DNA of 32,600 nt from a virus. Under the pieces are notes generated by a model. That model was not told the origin of the DNA and ran no database searches. It was given only the letters and a program-made list of their open reading frames with translations. Both the position numbers and the translations under genes were made by a program. This document shows, in pieces, positions 6,416 to 28,311 of this stretch (its first letter is position 1; each line of letters opens with the position of its first letter). The stretch spans positions 1 to 32,600 of IMG/VR virus record IMGVR_UViG_3300037502_001966; one strand, 5' to 3'.

Positions 6416-6442
6416 GAATAACACCCCTAATATGTTATTCCC

Positions 6443-6470
6443 TTTATAATATACGGCATGGAAACGTCAA
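6443..6470 (-). promoter_or_regulatory. Promoter candidate for the glycosyltransferase pair
   Basis: TTGACG (6465-6470) and TATAAA (6443-6448) are separated by 16 bases, close to a sigma-A consensus, about 30 bases before the first glycosyltransferase start. The -35 and spacer lie partly inside the left arm of an inverted repeat. It lacks the TGTC box found in the early promoters, so it probably answers to a different control. Confidence 0.55.
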
Positions 6471-6509
6471 GGGGTACGCTTGTCGCTTGCGCAAGCTATC
6501 CATGCCGTA
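6452..6509. repeat. Inverted repeat with inner palindrome upstream of glycosyltransferases
   Basis: Perfect 11-base arms, TACGGCATGGA at 6452-6462 and its complement at 6499-6509, enclose a 36-base loop. The loop contains a 12-base perfect palindrome, GCTTGCGCAAGC (6485-6496). There is no T run after either arm, so it is not a standard terminator. It may be an operator, an mRNA structure, or the scar of the insertion that brought the glycosyltransferases. Confidence 0.7.
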
Positions 6510-11422: not shown

Positions 11423-12640
11423 TCAAAAGTATATCGCTTGTTCTTGCACAAAACATTCTTCAAGCGCATATCTCATTGCATCAATTAAATGGTTATCTTT
11501 ATCGCGCGGTTTATTTATATATAAACCATTTTTGTCTGTTAAATATTGATACAATTGAATTTCTCGCAGGAAGTTTTTGCATGATGGGTGTATGATAATT
11601 TCATTCCTACGTATAAAGTCAATGCCAAAAGTTATTGAGTCCTTACCTTTTTTAGCGCCCTTCGCTCTTATCCCCATCAATTGTAAGTCGCGTATACTTT
11701 TTGGCTCGGCGCTATCGCAAGTAATATATTCGTTGTTTATTATATCTTTTAACCTTTGAGCAACAATATCATTTGTCATCTCAAGTTCTTCAAACTCATT
11801 TATCACATATATTTTTTTGCGCATACGGTCATAGTGCAGGCGCACAAAAGCGCATGGATCAGATGCAAAGCCGAAATCCAAGCCATTATAAAATGTATCG
11901 AATATTGATGGATCGAATTGTTCAACTTTGTAATTGTTGAATATGTTTTTGCCTAATATGCCCCAATTGCCTAAAGTATAAACGTTATAGAAATATGAAT
12001 CCTTTTCATTTTCCATGTTGCTGATATCTTGCTGCGTTAAAAATTGATTGTCTTTGTATGTTGTTTTAAGTATTAATATATTATCGTCTTTATATATTGG
12101 AGGTGTGAAGTCTGAAAAAAACTCTTTGTATAGCCAATGGGTTTGGTAAATGGGGTTAAACGATAATATAAGCCTCTTTTGTAATTCACTTCTTCCTCTT
12201 AACCTTTTTCGCAATTGCTGAACGTCCTCGTATTCGCACTCTGTGGATTCTTCGATCCATATGTCAGTCAGTACACCTTGTTGAGGTGTAATAGACTTAA
12301 CTTTTTCTACGTCGTCTAGTCCAGCGGACAGGATCTGTGAGCCGTTGAAGCAGGTGAACGACGATTCCGTTTTGTTTATGGTGAATAAATTTTGCATGTT
12401 TAAATTCTTGATAGCTTTTTGTAATTCGTTAAATAAAGACTTTCTAATAGTTCTTGCTGTTTTTCTGCATATAAGATAATTGCGCTTATTGTTTACTACG
12501 TCAATGATGGCGCGTTGAGCCAAAAAATAGCTTTTTCCGCTCGAAGACCCTCCAAAAAAGATCTGTATGGGTGTATCATCATGTAAGTATTTTAAATATA
12601 CTTTGTTGAACATTTTACTAGTTAAACGATACTCAATCAT
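11423..12640 (-). CDS. terL: Terminase large subunit
   Basis: This ~405-residue packaging motor and nuclease is of the PBSX/SPP1 type (Terminase_3). The N-terminal ATPase has Walker A GGSSSGKS near residues 31-38, preceded by IQIFF, and Walker B IWIEES followed by TECEYEDVQQLRKRLRG. The C-terminal RNase-H-like nuclease has the metal Asp in NGLDFGFASDPCAFV, a second acidic site in CDSAEPKS, and DNHLIDAMRYALE as the third. The protein is full length with no intein. Two adjacent ATGs (12643, 12640) overlap the small subunit gene; the second has better spacing to GAGGA. The family suits either headful or cos packaging, and I cannot tell which. Confidence 0.95.
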   Translation of the reverse strand: MIEYRLTSKMFNKVYLKYLHDDTPIQIFFGGSSSGKSYFLAQRAIIDVVNNKRNYLICRKTARTIRKSLFNELQKAIKNLNMQNLFTINKTESSFTCFNGSQILSAGLDDVEKVKSITPQQGVLTDIWIEESTECEYEDVQQLRKRLRGRSELQKRLILSFNPIYQTHWLYKEFFSDFTPPIYKDDNILILKTTYKDNQFLTQQDISNMENEKDSYFYNVYTLGNWGILGKNIFNNYKVEQFDPSIFDTFYNGLDFGFASDPCAFVRLHYDRMRKKIYVINEFEELEMTNDIVAQRLKDIINNEYITCDSAEPKSIRDLQLMGIRAKGAKKGKDSITFGIDFIRRNEIIIHPSCKNFLREIQLYQYLTDKNGLYINKPRDKDNHLIDAMRYALEECFVQEQAIYF

Positions 12641-13711: not shown

Positions 13712-15052
13712 TTACACTGCTACCGCTTGTAAACCCAATTTAGCTTTCACGGCATTGAGAATATCGGATTGTGTCGCGTCTTTGCTGGTCAGAGCCTGTA
13801 TGACATCCTCATCTACTGTGCCGTCTGCGATAATGTGATGTACGATCACCGTGTCTGTCTGACCTTGACGATGCAAGCGCGCATTGGCTTGCTGGTATAG
13901 CTCTAGTGACCATGTCAAGCCAAACCATACGATGATGTGCCCGCCACTTTGCAGGTTGAGCCCATGACCGCATGACGCAGGGTGAGCGAGGGCGATCTTG
14001 ATCTTTCCCGCGTTCCAATCCTCTATATCTTTTTCGCCATCAAGTTTTTTGGCATCTGGGAATCGCTCCATAATGCGATCCGCATCATGCTTAAAGCTGT
14101 AAAATACTAGCAATGTTTGCTCGCTGTGGAGTTCGGCGATCTCGTCCAACGCGTCAAGTTTAGCGTCATGAATCACTTTTACTCCGTCCTCCGTGTAGAT
14201 CGCGCCGTTTGCGACTTGCAACGCCTTGATCGCCATCGCTGTATCGATGTCATCTCCCACTGACCGCGCGTCTCTGACGATGTCGCGCAATGCGGTGTGC
14301 GCTTTTTTGTCTAGTTGCACTGATATGCGATTGTCGATGCGATCTCCAAGCAAGTTGTAGTCACTAGCGCGCATGGATACGACACTGGGGGCAATGGCGC
14401 GTGTGATGTCTTCTTTTGCATTTTTGCGAGGCGACCATTGATGGAATCTTCCTTCCGTAAAATATTTATGCCTGAATGTCCACTCGTTTTTGCCTAGAGT
14501 CTTGCCATTATCGATGAGATACATTTGCGACCATAGATCTAGTAGTCCGTTGCTTGCAGGCGTTCCAGTGAGCCCATAAAAGCGTTTAATTTTATGCCGT
14601 ACGCTTTTCAGTGCCTTAAATCTTTGTGACTTTGAACACTTGAAGCTACTAAGTTCATCGACCACTAGCGTGTCAAAATCCCATTCCATTTTATTTGATT
14701 CATAAAATTGTACAAGCCATTTAATGTTTTCGCGGTTAATTACGTAAAGATCCGCTTTTTGAGATAACGCCTTTTCGCGCTGCGATGAAGATCCTAAAAT
14801 TTTAGATACTAAAAGATGCTCGGTGTGAGTCCATTTCTGCGCTTCTTGCGCCCATGTACACTGTGCTACGCGCAACGGGGCGATGATCAATACTTTCTGC
14901 ACTTGTTTAGTGTCGATAAGTTTAACTAGCGCCGATAATGTCGTGACCGTTTTGCCAAGACCCATCTCAAGGAAAAGACCTAACTCTGTGTTTTTTTCGA
15001 TCAACTCTTGCGCGTGCAACTGATAATCGTGCGGTGCGAATTTTTTTGCCAT
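13712..15052 (-). CDS. SNF2-family DNA helicase/translocase
   Basis: This 446-residue superfamily 2 ATPase is of the phage SNF2 type. Near the N-terminus it has the Q-motif-like HDYQLHAQE and Walker A LEMGLGKT (residues ~28-36). VLIIAPLRVAQCTW is motif Ia, LVVDELSSFK is the DEXX box, and YGLTGTPASNGLLDLWSQMY is motif III. The C-terminal RecA domain carries LLVFYSFKHDADRI, ALAHPASCGHGLNLQ and QANARLHRQGQTDTV (motif VI with the Arg finger). Start at the ATG at 15052, ten bases after GGAG; an upstream TTG at 15061 sits on the Shine-Dalgarno. Family members lie in phage replication modules and are thought to remodel protein-DNA or replication-fork structures. Behind its own early promoter. Confidence 0.92.
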   Translation of the reverse strand: MAKKFAPHDYQLHAQELIEKNTELGLFLEMGLGKTVTTLSALVKLIDTKQVQKVLIIAPLRVAQCTWAQEAQKWTHTEHLLVSKILGSSSQREKALSQKADLYVINRENIKWLVQFYESNKMEWDFDTLVVDELSSFKCSKSQRFKALKSVRHKIKRFYGLTGTPASNGLLDLWSQMYLIDNGKTLGKNEWTFRHKYFTEGRFHQWSPRKNAKEDITRAIAPSVVSMRASDYNLLGDRIDNRISVQLDKKAHTALRDIVRDARSVGDDIDTAMAIKALQVANGAIYTEDGVKVIHDAKLDALDEIAELHSEQTLLVFYSFKHDADRIMERFPDAKKLDGEKDIEDWNAGKIKIALAHPASCGHGLNLQSGGHIIVWFGLTWSLELYQQANARLHRQGQTDTVIVHHIIADGTVDEDVIQALTSKDATQSDILNAVKAKLGLQAVAV

Positions 15053-15095: not shown

Positions 15096-15124
15096 ATCAT
15101 ATCATATCGGACAATGATTGTCAA
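15096..15124 (-). promoter_or_regulatory. Early promoter P3 with operator dyad
   Basis: TTGACA (15119-15124), a 17-base spacer, then TATGAT (15096-15101): a near-perfect sigma-A promoter for the SNF2 gene. The sequence GACAATCATTGTC, a perfect 13-base dyad with a one-base centre, overlaps the -35 and spacer. The -10 lies within tandem ATATG repeats. Confidence 0.8.
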
Positions 15125-15142: not shown

Positions 15143-15430
15143 TTGTTCCGTTTATGTTCCAGTCGTGTTCCAATGGCGTTCCAATAGTACAAGTGTTTAA
15201 ATTCCAGTATATATAAGGCTTTTCAAACTTAAGAATAGACGTGTTCCAGTTGTTCCAATAAATTCCCTATATAGCTGGAAATATATAATATATATTCTAT
15301 ACTATTTATACTATTCTACTGGAACAGTGGAACAGTATATATAATATATAGATAATATAAGGATTTTCAACATTTAACCTAGTGGAACATTCACTGGAAC
15401 AGTACTGGAACACTGGAACAGTAAAGGTGC
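15143..15430. repeat. Iteron element IR-L, inverted copy of 25005-25277
   Basis: This non-coding stretch holds 12 GTTCC/GGAAC boxes. GTTCC begins at 15145, 15156, 15167, 15178, 15243 and 15252; GGAAC at 15321, 15329, 15384, 15396, 15407 and 15415. The first four are exactly 11 bp apart, one helical turn. Several boxes extend to ACTG-GAA-CAGT, itself a dyad (for example 15318-15328). Between the arrays lie AT-rich runs and two copies of a TGAAAAGCCTTATAT-like block. The reverse complement aligns end to end with 25005-25277, with 72 identical bases (15206-15277 against 25153-25224). It lies between the primase terminator and the SNF2 promoter, so neither operon should read through it. Iterons plus AT-rich DNA suggest an origin or protein-binding array. 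Confidence 0.9.
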
Positions 15431-15436
15431 TGAAAC

Positions 15437-15462
15437 AAAAAAAGAGCCTTTTTTGGCTCTTT
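15437..15462 (-). terminator. Rho-independent terminator after the primase gene
   Basis: Eight-bp perfect stem AAAGAGCC / GGCTCTTT with an A6 loop and more T after it on the minus strand, 13 bases beyond the primase stop. It ends the main early transcript just before iteron element IR-L. The plus strand could also terminate weakly here. Confidence 0.88.
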
Positions 15463-18158: not shown

Positions 18159-18187
18159 ATCATATCATATATGACAGACCAATGCAA
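18159..18187 (-). promoter_or_regulatory. Early promoter P4
   Basis: TTGCAT (18182-18187), 17 bases, TATGAT (18159-18164). The spacer holds CTGTCATATATGA, so the TGTC box and -10 surround match the other early promoters while the -35 is weaker. It would drive the small protein and probably the primase. Confidence 0.7.
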
Positions 18188-18218: not shown

Positions 18219-18416
18219 TTAGCTATTTAGTTTGTTAAATTTTAGCGTTTCGTGTTGATCGATTGCGTTGCTCAAAAGATGAGTAATTGCTTGCGTTTTC
18301 GTTACGTAGTGCAAATCATCCTTAATGCTGTCAATCTTTTTTAACATATTCTCCGACACCACGACAGAGATCCTCGTGCGTGTCCGTCCGCTTTTTACAT
18401 GCTTAGGCTCATTCAT
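18219..18416 (-). CDS. Ribbon-helix-helix DNA-binding protein
   Basis: This is a 65-residue CopG/Arc-like protein. The N-terminal strand TRTRISVVVSENMLKKIDSI, a helix ending at about residue 36, then TKTQAITHLLSNAIDQH gives the ribbon-helix-helix order; such proteins bind DNA as dimers through the strand. The ATG at 18416 has GGAGG eight bases upstream. It is the only clear sequence-specific regulator encoded by the phage, so it is the leading candidate to bind the TGTC-containing early promoters or the GGAAC iterons. That link is an inference. Confidence 0.8.
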   Translation of the reverse strand: MNEPKHVKSGRTRTRISVVVSENMLKKIDSIKDDLHYVTKTQAITHLLSNAIDQHETLKFNKLNS

Positions 18417-19002: not shown

Positions 19003-21143
19003 CGTATTGGACACGCTCCTCCCTCGCATGATTCGTTGCCTACGTCAATAATTCCTTTGTCGTACTTTTGCAATAGTTTTGCATCAAATTTTTTCATTGA
19101 CGATTTCAATAATTCATATTCTTCTTTGCTACATTCTTCATACGGCGCGAGCGGGTACGTACCGCCATCATCTGCCAAAAATGATATGCCGATGTAATCA
19201 TTCCACATATTAAGTAATTGATTAGGCAAGTCAACCCATTCACTTGGTTTAACATGTATCGTGTTGGATGTGTTATGATCTGTGTATTTCTCTTGAAACA
19301 TCTTATATATATATAATTGTTCTTTTGCATCAACATTCTTTTTATGCCGTTGCGCGGGCGAATTTACGGGGAAGTCGATCACAAGAGTTGTCGCAGACTC
19401 CATCTCTTGCCCAACCTCTGGGTGCACGCGCCACCCCAAATCAAGAGCCATGCGCGCCAGCGGATCGTGCGAATTGATGCGTATGCGCCGTATAAAATAT
19501 TCGCTATGCGAAAAGTGGATACCGCTAGACACCCCTCCTGCCACTATAGACAGTGTTCCTTCTGGCTTGACTGTCGTAACAAGCAAGGGTCTGTTAACAC
19601 CAAGAAATGTCGCATAGTCACTTGCTGTGTCGTTTGCAGTATTTCTTAGCATCAATAATATATCTTGCAACTCATGCCAGTTGTATCCTGCGTCCTGCAC
19701 ACCTGTGATACTACACCCTAGCAATCTATCGCGTTGTTGAATTTTATCCCAATGGGGGAGTTCCAGTTGCGCGAGCGTCATTCGCAGCCCTGCTCGTGCG
19801 GACAAACTTTGCGCGAGTTTTAACTCTTCCAAGTTTTCCCAATCGGCTGATAAATTTATTGTGGTTAAGTTACAAACGCCGTAGCTGTCTAGCAATATTT
19901 CTGCGCACGGATTAAGACCTTTGACATTAGGTCTGCGCTTTTCTGCCGCTGCTAGGTTTATAAACCCCGGCTCTCCCTCTAGTTTCATGATCAAACATAA
20001 TAACTCCATCACATTTTCGCTCGGTTTATCATTAAATGCAATAGAGTTATTACTCATGCGCCGATGATGCAAGTGCGTTTTGCACATTGGATCAACGAGT
20101 AATGCGTCTACGACCTTGTGGTCAACGCCTCTGATCGTGTTCATTTTATCTTTGATTTTCTTTAGCAAACTTAACCCTTCATCGCCCCAGATACCGTTGA
20201 TTCCGAATTTTGCAAAAATGCTTTCCCAGTCGTCCGAGTCGCACAAAAATATTTCTGCAGTCCGCCTAACCCCTCCGCACACTACGTTGTTGCCGATGAG
20301 ATTGCCGATGTCTAGAACATGTACAGGTCTTACTTGCCCATCAATCGGCTTAATAGTCGTTGTATCTAACTCTCCACGCAACATACTTTCAATGCCTTTA
20401 AACATCTGCATTAATGGCTCGTGCCCGCTCGCTGTTCCGCCGAAGGTCAGCAAGCGCTCCCCTTTTGGGCGAATATTGTCGTAAATGATATTAAGTGTTT
20501 TTACTTTTCCCTCTATTAAAATGTTGATAAAGCTGTTGAATGATTGTACCCATCCTTCTTTACTATCGCCGACAATTATTGTTGCAAAATTTTCACTTTG
20601 CTCTGTCGAACCTTCGACTCCGTTTTCGCCGATAAATTTATAATCTTTGTGTATAATATTTTCGGGCAAAAACAATTTATGCAACTTTGACGCGTTTTGT
20701 TTAGTACATTTAAATCCTACGCCAGTTCCAATTAGCAATAAATAAAACAAGTCACCTAAATCTTTCCAACTCTTTACGTCAACAAATGCACAATTGAAGT
20801 TTGACATAGGGTACTTTGCGCCTGCTTCAGTACCTCCTATCCATAGTGTTCTGCCGCTTAAAAATTGTTTGAGGTTAAACATGTTGTCGAATAATAATTC
20901 CGCCTCCTTCTTTAAATCGTTAAGACTTTCTGCTTTCTCGATACCTTTGTTGCTAAAATGTCTATATTCTAAACTAATGTTATACTCAACGGCTCTCGCG
21001 CATGTCTCCTTCCACGTTTCACGGCGACCCAAATTACTTAACCATCTTGAATATGTGCGGTAGTAAACAAACTCGCCAATCTCGGTCATATGCTCGGGAG
21101 CATCATTGTATTTGCTTAAAAATTCATCTGATAAAAATTTCAT
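18999..21143 (-). CDS. nrdJ: Adenosylcobalamin-dependent ribonucleoside-triphosphate reductase (class II)
   Basis: This 714-residue monomeric class II RNR makes dNTPs from NTPs using B12, so the host must supply or import cobalamin. Residues match the Lactobacillus leichmannii enzyme: Cys118 in NFNCAF and Cys424 in YGVCNLTTIN are the reducing pair, and Cys413 in LNPCAEI is the radical site. Cys706 and Cys711 in the C-terminal ESCEGGACP shuttle electrons from thioredoxin, with the same five-residue spacing. It also has VKPEGTLSIVAGGVSSGIHF near the C-terminal barrel. The start at 21143 has GAGGAG ten bases upstream. It needs no oxygen and no second subunit. All catalytic Cys residues are present. 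Confidence 0.95.
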   Translation of the reverse strand: MKFLSDEFLSKYNDAPEHMTEIGEFVYYRTYSRWLSNLGRRETWKETCARAVEYNISLEYRHFSNKGIEKAESLNDLKKEAELLFDNMFNLKQFLSGRTLWIGGTEAGAKYPMSNFNCAFVDVKSWKDLGDLFYLLLIGTGVGFKCTKQNASKLHKLFLPENIIHKDYKFIGENGVEGSTEQSENFATIIVGDSKEGWVQSFNSFINILIEGKVKTLNIIYDNIRPKGERLLTFGGTASGHEPLMQMFKGIESMLRGELDTTTIKPIDGQVRPVHVLDIGNLIGNNVVCGGVRRTAEIFLCDSDDWESIFAKFGINGIWGDEGLSLLKKIKDKMNTIRGVDHKVVDALLVDPMCKTHLHHRRMSNNSIAFNDKPSENVMELLCLIMKLEGEPGFINLAAAEKRRPNVKGLNPCAEILLDSYGVCNLTTINLSADWENLEELKLAQSLSARAGLRMTLAQLELPHWDKIQQRDRLLGCSITGVQDAGYNWHELQDILLMLRNTANDTASDYATFLGVNRPLLVTTVKPEGTLSIVAGGVSSGIHFSHSEYFIRRIRINSHDPLARMALDLGWRVHPEVGQEMESATTLVIDFPVNSPAQRHKKNVDAKEQLYIYKMFQEKYTDHNTSNTIHVKPSEWVDLPNQLLNMWNDYIGISFLADDGGTYPLAPYEECSKEEYELLKSSMKKFDAKLLQKYDKGIIDVGNESCEGGACPIR

Positions 21144-22997: not shown

Positions 22998-23014
22998 CGA
23001 ATGCGTTTTTTGCT

Positions 23015-23062
23015 ACCGACTTACCGACTTACCGACTTACCGACTTACCGACTTACCGCCTT
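23015..23062. repeat. 8-bp tandem repeat, ACCGACTT x 6
   Basis: Five perfect copies of ACCGACTT (23015-23054) and a sixth with one change (23055-23062). On the transcribed strand this reads as AAGTCGGT repeats. It overlaps the stop of the 23053-23139 micro-ORF and lies between it and the DUF2815 leader hairpin. Confidence 0.92.
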
Positions 23063-23159: not shown

Positions 23160-23188
23160 ATCATATCATATCCGACAATGTGTGTCAA
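23160..23188 (-). promoter_or_regulatory. Early promoter P2 with operator
   Basis: TTGACA (23183-23188), 17 bases, TATGAT (23160-23165). Within it GACA-N5-TGTC forms a dyad over the -35 and spacer, and GATATGATATGAT holds the -10. It sits after the DUF2800 stop and drives the micro-ORF and DUF2815 onward. Confidence 0.8.
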
Positions 23189-24958: not shown

Positions 24959-24987
24959 ATCATATCATATCGGACAATGCGTGTCAA
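24959..24987 (-). promoter_or_regulatory. Early promoter P1 with operator
   Basis: TTGACA (24982-24987), 17 bases, TATGAT (24959-24964). Its spacer carries GACA-N5-TGTC and a GATATGATATGAT core as in P2 and P3. It opens the early operon next to iteron element IR-R. Confidence 0.8.
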
Positions 24988-25004: not shown

Positions 25005-25277
25005 TTTTATGTTCCAGTGTTCCAGTCGTGTTCCAGTTGGTGTTCCACTAGGTTTAAGATTGAAAAGCCTTATATTATCTATATATTATATATACTGTTC
25101 CAGTGTTCCAGTAGAATAGTATAAATAGTATAGATATATTATTATAATATTTCAGCTATATAGGGAATTTATTGGAACAACTGGAACACGTCTATTCTTA
25201 AGTTTGAAAAGCCTTATATATACTAAAGTTTAAACACTTGTGCTATTGGAACGTCATTGGAACACGACTGGAACAAA
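25005..25277. repeat. Iteron element IR-R, inverted copy of 15143-15430
   Basis: Non-coding, with 11 boxes: GTTCC begins at 25011, 25019, 25030, 25042, 25097 and 25105, and GGAAC at 25174, 25183, 25248, 25259 and 25270. Box spacings (8, 11, 12; 8; 9; 11, 11) mirror those of IR-L read in reverse. Two TTGAAAAGCCTTATAT-like blocks sit in direct orientation, and between the central boxes is an AT-rich core of TATA-rich DNA. The differences are scattered substitutions and small indels, so the two copies are old or under shared constraint. The element lies between the lysis terminator and promoter P1, away from readthrough. The 24930-25316 gap contains only this element, P1 and the terminator. Confidence 0.9.
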
Positions 25278-25309
25278 AAAAGCCCACCAACGATAATCGT
25301 TAGCAGGCT
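25275..25309 (-). terminator. Rho-independent terminator after the amidase (late operon end)
   Basis: 13-bp stem on the minus strand (arms 25281-25293 and 25297-25309) with a TTA loop followed by seven T. Three of its pairs are G-U, and these become mismatches on the plus strand, so it is strong only in the direction of the late transcript. It ends the lysis module just before IR-R. Confidence 0.9.
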
Positions 25310-25316
25310 TTTTTTA

Positions 25317-27126: not shown

Positions 27127-28311
27127 TTAAATCGTCACCGATCCTTTTTTGTATTTTATATAACCCGTAGTTGGTGTTACGAAATTTAATGTAGTTTGCG
27201 ATCCGACAGTTGTTTCTGTTGTCGCTGGCGAGAATTGATATTTCGATCCAACTGGAATTGTGATCGGCGGCGAAAGCAAAGCATATGCGTTGACAACGGA
27301 GCTTGATACACCTGAAGAATTTAACCCACCACCAAAAAGCGCATAATTCCCTACGGTCGTTGCGCTTAATTGCCTTATTGCCAAACTAAGTTCAGCAGGT
27401 GTTGTACGCACTAAACTGGTATCATATGCATCGACAGTTGATCTATATGCCCCATCAAACCCACCGCCAAAAAGAGCATAGTTTCCAACGCTTGTAGCGG
27501 TTAAAATATATCGCGCAACGCTTAACGCCGTAGGTGTTGTACGTACTAAACTTGTATCGTAAGCATCAACAACCGCACTGTTAACACTACCACTACCAAA
27601 CCCGCCACCAAAAAGGGCATAATTTCCGACTTTTGTTGCTGCAAAACGACTTCGCGCAACGCTTAACGCCGTAGGTGTTGTACGCACTAAACTGGTGTCG
27701 TACGCATCAACTGCTGCGCTTGCACTTCCTGTATCGCCGCCACCAAAAAGGGCATAATTCCCAACGCTTGTGGCGGCTAGAAATTCACGCGCAACGCTTA
27801 ACGCCGTAGGTGTTGTACGAACTAAACTGGTGTCGTAAGCATCGACTACTGCACTTACACTGCCTGTAGTACCGCCGCCAAAAAGAGCATAATTCCCAAC
27901 GTTTGTCGCTGCTAAGTATTGCCGCCCTACACTTAACGCCGTAGGTGTTGTACGCACTAAACTAGTATCATAGGCATCGACTACTGCACTGTAAACACCA
28001 CCACCAAACCCGCCGCCAAAAAGGGCATAGTTCCCAACCTTCGCTGCTGATAACCCAAACCTCGCAACACTTAACGCCGTAGGTGTTGTACGTACTAAAC
28101 TTGTGTCGTACGCATCGACCACAGCGCTGCTAACACCACTAGACAAACCGCCGCCAAAAAGGGCGTAATTTCCAACGCTTGTGGCAGCATTTCTTTCTTG
28201 TGAAACGCTTAGTGCTGTTGGATTTGGCGATGTCCTTACTAGCGTGCCAGTGGAAAGAGTGTAGTCAACTCTCGTCAATCCACCGCCGATATTTGTTCTC
28301 CCGCTACCCAT
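27127..28311 (-). CDS. Kelch-like seven-repeat beta-propeller, probable receptor-binding protein
   Basis: This 394-residue protein is built of seven VGNYALFGGG units, 45-47 residues apart. Each is followed by VDAYDTSLVRTTPTALSVAR, the Kelch-type pattern of a Gly-Gly turn and repeated Tyr/Asp/Val. The N-terminal TLSTGTLVRTSPNPTALSV supplies an extra strand set that can close the ring with the last unit, so one seven-bladed propeller is likely. The C-terminal region (ITIPVGSKYQFSP onward) looks like a small beta domain for attachment. ATG at 28311 with GGAGG six bases upstream. It lies among tail-tip genes, so it is expected to bind a surface sugar or protein. The loops between GGG and VDAYD vary most. 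Confidence 0.85.
   Translation of the reverse strand: MGSGRTNIGGGLTRVDYTLSTGTLVRTSPNPTALSVSQERNAATSVGNYALFGGGLSSGVSSAVVDAYDTSLVRTTPTALSVARFGLSAAKVGNYALFGGGFGGGVYSAVVDAYDTSLVRTTPTALSVGRQYLAATNVGNYALFGGGTTGSVSAVVDAYDTSLVRTTPTALSVAREFLAATSVGNYALFGGGDTGSASAAVDAYDTSLVRTTPTALSVARSRFAATKVGNYALFGGGFGSGSVNSAVVDAYDTSLVRTTPTALSVARYILTATSVGNYALFGGGFDGAYRSTVDAYDTSLVRTTPAELSLAIRQLSATTVGNYALFGGGLNSSGVSSSVVNAYALLSPPITIPVGSKYQFSPATTETTVGSQTTLNFVTPTTGYIKYKKGSVTI
27341..28172 (-). repeat. Coding tandem repeats of the propeller, 135-141 bp x 7
   Basis: The codons for VGNYALFGGG recur starting (plus-strand core gcataa or close variants) at 27341, 27476, 27617, 27752, 27887, 28025 and 28163, spacings 135, 141, 135, 135, 138 and 138. 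Middle copies are almost identical in DNA (the VRTTPTALSV part especially), which would allow recombination to change blade number or shuffle loops. Size differences fall in multiples of three, all in frame. Confidence 0.9.

Follow-up and report, generated by a model that had tools for sequence, protein, structure and literature searches.

We identified an element at positions 15143–15425 of the window, the 32,600-nt stretch analysed here, that is very probably a start site of phage DNA replication, one recognised by the phage's VapE helicase. A second, inverted copy lies at 25006–25279. Judged by comparative sequence and structure evidence, both elements are likely to be replication origins of the SaPI/PICI type that VapE recognises, arranged as an inverted pair around the replication module. 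This kind of origin is already known from SaPIs, PICIs, and P4; the novelty here is that a full tailed phage carries it as an inverted pair. The first-pass annotation had read the left element as a replication origin, and comparison supports this reading through the arrays found 3' of vapE, the SaPI Rep domain match, and the conservation of the element. The window is a circular phage contig with a 127-bp end repeat (virus record G000). Its genes include those for terminase, portal, capsid, tape measure, and holin, as in a tailed phage, and every identified gene is on the minus strand.

Architecture of the two elements

The features of the two elements are as follows.

15143–15425, unstranded: left candidate origin element immediately past the 3' end of vapE, with 12 AYTGGAACA boxes (two opposed sets of 6) enclosing AT-rich DNA
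15211–15225, minus: TGAAAAGCCTTATAT block between box groups of the left element, read from the sequence
15258–15318, unstranded: AT-rich centre of the left element, where 40-bp windows reach 88% A+T, candidate site of melting
15355–15369, minus: TGAAAATCCTTATAT block, second copy in direct orientation, left element, read from the sequence
25006–25279, unstranded: right candidate origin element, inverted copy of the left element, 11 boxes, ~90% identity
25061–25075, plus: TGAAAAGCCTTATAT block of the right element
25111–25172, unstranded: AT-rich centre of the right element, likewise reaching 88% A+T
25205–25219, plus: TGAAAAGCCTTATAT block, second copy, right element

Counted box by box, the left element contains the 12 GTTCC/GGAAC boxes described in the first-pass annotation. 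Six GTTCC boxes (15145, 15156, 15167, 15178, 15243, and 15252) are followed by six GGAAC boxes in the opposite orientation (15321, 15329, 15384, 15396, 15407, and 15415), and these positions bear out the large dyad. The 11-bp spacing reported for the first four boxes is exact. The two repeat blocks noticed inside the element are also real, with the form ATATAAGG(C/A)TTTTCA, and are direct repeats of each other. In both elements, TGAAAA(G/T)CCTTATAT blocks separate the box groups, and strings like the TGAAAAGCCTTATAT block, AAA(G/A/T)CCTTATA, are present in several other VapE-locus arrays. The gap is non-coding, as had been claimed, apart from short chance ORFs of 54–58 aa. The expansion of boxes to the dyad ACTG-N3-CAGT holds for 4 of the 23 boxes in the two elements; it is incidental and not a general feature.

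The consensus over the same 23 boxes is A-Y-T-GGAAC-A, a directional motif with A at −3 in every box. The window contains 22 copies of TGGAACA where 4.0 would be expected; none of 100 shuffles reached 22, and 20 of the copies belong to the left element and its inverted counterpart. The bare 5-mer GGAAC is not over-represented (47 genome-wide versus 47.3 expected), so the clustering is what matters. The ten box spacings of the right element equal those of the left when each is counted from its module-proximal end (8, 11, 12, 55, 8, 69, 9, 65, 11, and 11). The inverted pair comprises 288 nt and brackets a 9.6-kb replication module. The left element lies 50 bp past the vapE stop, a 3' position that the right copy does not share. 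Neither element contains a DnaA box (TTWTNCACA), which sets both apart from RepA-type iteron plasmid origins. GC skew, which had been suggested as a check, gave no support, with no clear sign change at either element overall, at third positions, or at four-fold positions.

Flanking genes and the candidate initiator

The following features flank the elements.

13712–15052, minus: gene for a helicase of the SNF2 family, on the downstream side of the left element, from profile matches
15096–15124, minus: SNF2 gene promoter, TTGACA-17-TATGAT, directly beyond the left element, with spacer dyad GACA-N5-TGTC
15436–15460, minus: terminator-like hairpin after vapE, GAGCC-N6-GGCTC then a T run, found by eye and without an entry in the consensus scan, conserved in the related contig L006
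15475–17859, minus: vapE, VapE-type primase-helicase gene, proposed initiator, from profile matches and predicted structure
24959–24987, minus: early operon promoter of the same TTGACA-17-TATGAT type, directly beyond the right element
25276–25316, minus: terminator-like hairpin that follows the amidase/lysis genes and adjoins the right element, found by eye and without an entry in the consensus scan

The left element had been placed between a primase terminator and an SNF2 promoter. The promoter was recovered by the scan, and the hairpin that divides vapE from the element is a terminator-like structure by visual reading only. The origin-opening helicase originally named as its neighbour has to be replaced: the adjacent candidate initiator gene is vapE, which encodes a primase-helicase. 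SNF2 proteins are, to our knowledge, not typical origin-opening helicases. Three near-identical TTGACA-17-TATGAT promoters occur on the minus strand (15096–15124, 23160–23188, and 24959–24987). The spacer of each contains a GACA-N5-TGTC dyad, and a fourth ATCATATCATAT lies at 18159. These dyads are probably operators through which a phage regulator acts, the RHH protein being one possibility.

The Pfam matches of the window VapE are VapE-like_dom and DUF5906 only, and the protein also matches PHROG helicase and primase families. Its relation to SaPI1 PriRep1 (PDB 7PDS) is evident from both the profile comparison (E 7e-126) and Foldseek, where PriRep1 ranked first (E 1e-40). In the AlphaFold model, residues 690–794 form a predicted C-terminal winged helix, and this domain alone matched 7PDS with a Z of 14.1, the next row scoring 5.5. 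These matches identify a SaPI Rep homologue with a predicted winged-helix C-terminal domain. The C-terminal domains of SaPI Rep proteins are reported to recognise iterons directly downstream of rep (PMC7581432), and PICI origins are reported to consist of two iteron sets with an AT-rich region between them (PMC6092414). We propose that residues 690–794 of VapE may bind the AYTGGAACA boxes.

Box arrays at other VapE loci

VapE proteins, which owe their name to virulence, occur widely among phages and prophages, yet their role in the phage has rarely been tested. We drew 80 VapE loci from bacterial genomes by the VapE protein profile alone, which avoided a motif-based choice. The top 6-mer occurred at least six times in the 400 bp 3' of vapE in 45 of the 72 testable loci, in both orientations in 43 of these, compared with 2 of 544 controls located 3' of other long ORFs (Mann–Whitney p 5e-40). 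One of these two control regions is itself another array, 2 kb beyond vapE. Likewise, at least five G-N2-ACA/G-N3-AC boxes were found at 59 of 82 loci and in 16 of 2822 control windows. About one third of the VapE loci fall below the array threshold directly 3' of vapE, and in Bacteroidales phages the arrays lie kilobases away from the gene. In Croceibacter phage P2559Y, a GTAAAC array at 42701–43035 is about 11 kb from its vapE.

Scanning IMG/VR with ACTGGAACACTGGAACA returned true arrays and chance matches intermixed. Among IMG/VR contigs with TGGAACA clusters, a VapE-like or DUF5906 helicase gene was directly beside the array in L010, L029, L033, L044, L045, L047, L048, and L050. The pattern AAGGMTTTTCAAACTTAA, searched in IMG/VR, matched sequences without box arrays, apart from L006. 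A blastn search of the element against phage records yielded chance-level matches only (E 0.01 or worse), DUF2800 used as bait for full-length relatives gave distant matches only, and our literature search found no account of VapE-phage origins.

The box sequence varies among phages (GGAACA, GTCAAC, GGATAC, GTAAAC, GTATAC, GGCAAC, and others) and mostly conforms to G-N2-AC(A) or G-N3-AC; phiFL4A, for example, has GGATAC and StAB has GGAACA. Because the place of the array is constant while its box changes from phage to phage, we expect the box to be read by a phage-encoded protein that varies along with it. With N-terminal identity controlled for, identity in the VapE C-terminal region still tracked the sharing of boxes (partial Mantel r 0.136, p 0.001); the reverse test, with the N-terminal region tracking box sharing after C-terminal correction, gave p 0.27. 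This suggests co-variation of the VapE C-terminal region with the box, a small effect that is confounded by phylogeny. Per-column co-variation was not concentrated in the C-terminal domain, the best single column being in the AAA+ domain. A wing proline was associated with box type (Fisher p 0.009), again with phylogenetic confounding. The wing of the window VapE, RIGAEYGHVNGF, is unlike that of most GGAACA phages (RIP-IYGxQ). From these data, the location of the origin and the box that the C-terminal domain would read, mostly G-N2/3-AC, can be predicted for most VapE proteins. The post-vapE layout across phages and prophages points to a shared ancestry of phage and satellite replicons.

Conservation and age of the pair

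The VapE of L006 is 92% identical to that of the window, and this contig carries the same element at the same place with extra boxes at one end. Of 283 aligned sites, the left element and its L006 counterpart differ at 10 (96.5% identity), whereas divergence at four-fold sites is 29% for vapE and 21% for SNF2; synonymous positions nearby are thus far less conserved than the element. The L006 contig is incomplete and stops short of the right side, and a three-copy comparison was made with its left-position element. The odd copy was the window right element at 24 sites, L006 at 4, and the window left element at 1. With 24 such sites in the right copy and a combined 5 in the other two, the duplication preceded the divergence of the window from L006.

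Relation to known replication systems

The SaPI/PICI origins, known here from published work and 7PDS, resemble the left element in several respects. The array lies directly 3' of the gene for a VapE/Rep-type self-loading helicase, two oppositely oriented iteron sets (6 + 6 boxes here) surround an AT-rich centre, and the initiator has a winged-helix C-terminal domain homologous to that of PriRep1. Unlike those origins, the present one is found in a complete tailed phage, twice, inverted around the replication module, and with the box AYTGGAACA. The window was also considered as a PICI, a helper-dependent satellite, and this was rejected on its terminase-to-holin gene set; only the origin type is common to both.

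In the P4 annotation (NC_001609), two iteron-bearing cis sites similarly lie on either side of the initiator operon. P4 crr is directly 3' of the alpha gene past a terminator, and the left element occupies this crr/SaPI-ori position; P4 ori is upstream of the leftward alpha operon, and the right element is correspondingly upstream of the initiator operon. The G-N3-AC grammar also accommodates the P4 type 1 box, GGTGAACA, which is not the AYTGGAACA box of the window. P4 ori and crr also differ from each other, whereas the two window elements are near-identical and inverted. Direct sequence comparison of P4 alpha with the window VapE gave no significant match. The Pfam set of alpha comprises a Zn-ribbon/Toprim primase, D5_N, Pox_D5, and DUF5906, of which VapE has only DUF5906. 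Membership in the P4 ori/crr system was thus rejected, VapE having neither the alpha-type initiator domains nor the P4 box; with no sequence kinship detectable between alpha and VapE, the likeness is one of design. The origin-binding domain of alpha was not among the structural matches of VapE, an absence that is no evidence in itself. At 12551–12674 of L136 (Peptococcaceae bacterium UBA5356), a post-vapE array has the box GTGAACA, whose core is common to the P4 type 1 repeat.

SPP1, a virulent phage, likewise has one initiator and two origin sites, oriL and oriR. Its initiator is not a VapE helicase but the replisome organiser G38P, which works with a separate helicase (PMC5615212). The ori of Streptococcus thermophilus phage Sfi21 (the PER element), given as 302 bp in the description cited in PMC6356513, would by that description be a similar non-coding element of about 300 bp that serves as an origin within a replication module. 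In dairy streptococci, supplying origin DNA in multicopy is an established means of countering phages (PER, PMC6356513).

Proposed mechanism and alternative explanations

We infer binding, melting, origin firing, and a replication role for both copies, either as two origins or as an ori with a crr-like helper. The VapE C-terminal winged helix would bind the AYTGGAACA boxes, with one VapE multimer assembling per set of same-orientation boxes. The AT-rich DNA between the sets would then melt, and two helicases would load head-to-head and start bidirectional replication. The near-identity of the two elements suggests that they may be two complete origins. Alternatively, by analogy with P4 alpha at ori and crr, they could together form a bipartite replicator in which VapE is required at both sites, a reading we advance tentatively. 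If true, twin-origin layouts would be a recurrent, unrecognised design in VapE phages. The twin copies offer a clean system for asking why a phage retains two origins.

Two arrays flank the replication genes in the Phocaeicola/OM05-12 phages BV57P1, BV200P1, and BD166P1, where the second copy is diverged and in direct orientation. In Bacteroides phage BT12 (L169), GGATAG arrays at 20456–20855 and 37706–38094 lie on either side of the replication module. That these four Bacteroidales phages, as well as P4, keep two arrays around their replication genes argues against the left element being the only origin and the right copy a non-essential duplicate or a decoy that titrates VapE. Despite a duplication older than the divergence from L006, the right copy has furthermore kept its spacings and is still 90% identical. 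A sole left origin would agree with the sufficiency of one array in phiFL4A, Fontainebleau, and StAB, and with the other 51 strong-array VapE loci, where no second matching box cluster within ~10 kb was confirmed; two extra clusters in L138 are in apparently coding sequence. On balance, we consider it rather unlikely.

Transcription control, with VapE or another phage protein activating or repressing from upstream of the two early promoters, is quite improbable as the function of the arrays. Both elements are directly upstream of near-identical TTGACA-17-TATGAT promoters, with the nearest box ~25–28 bp from the −35, and VapE bound there could autoregulate. However, the third promoter copy (23188–23160) has no boxes, the post-vapE place defines the array at other VapE loci, and an operator would not need as many as 11 or 12 boxes and an AT-rich core; the promoters' own GACA-N5-TGTC dyads are more plausible operators. 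Since both elements abut promoters, transcription control in addition to the origin role is possible.

RHH proteins can bind arrays of short boxes, and an RHH-like repressor gene (18219–18416, a weak PHROG match) is present in the early operon; its product had been named as a candidate box binder. Nevertheless, centromere-like partition sites of the omega/ParG type bound by this protein are very improbable. No ParA-type match was found among the early-region ORFs scanned against Pfam. Although most of the 80 VapE loci have arrays, no RHH homologue was detected in any of them, and this protein is an unlikely reader of the boxes. It is equally far-fetched that the inverted pair, which brackets exactly the replication module, is a recombination substrate for flipping or amplifying it: the ~90% identity is imperfect, no recombinase was identified, the arrays of the Phocaeicola phages are in direct orientation, and the inverted form was not observed.

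Additional features of the window

A protein encoded at 27127–28311 consists of about seven repeats of 135–141 nt and has no Pfam match. A tandem octamer, TACCGACT, is present in about six copies at 23014–23061, where a gap separates the SSB-like gene from DUF2800. An int-alpA RNA (Rfam RF02996) was detected on the minus strand at 6441–6506, with 45.4 bits, above the gathering score.
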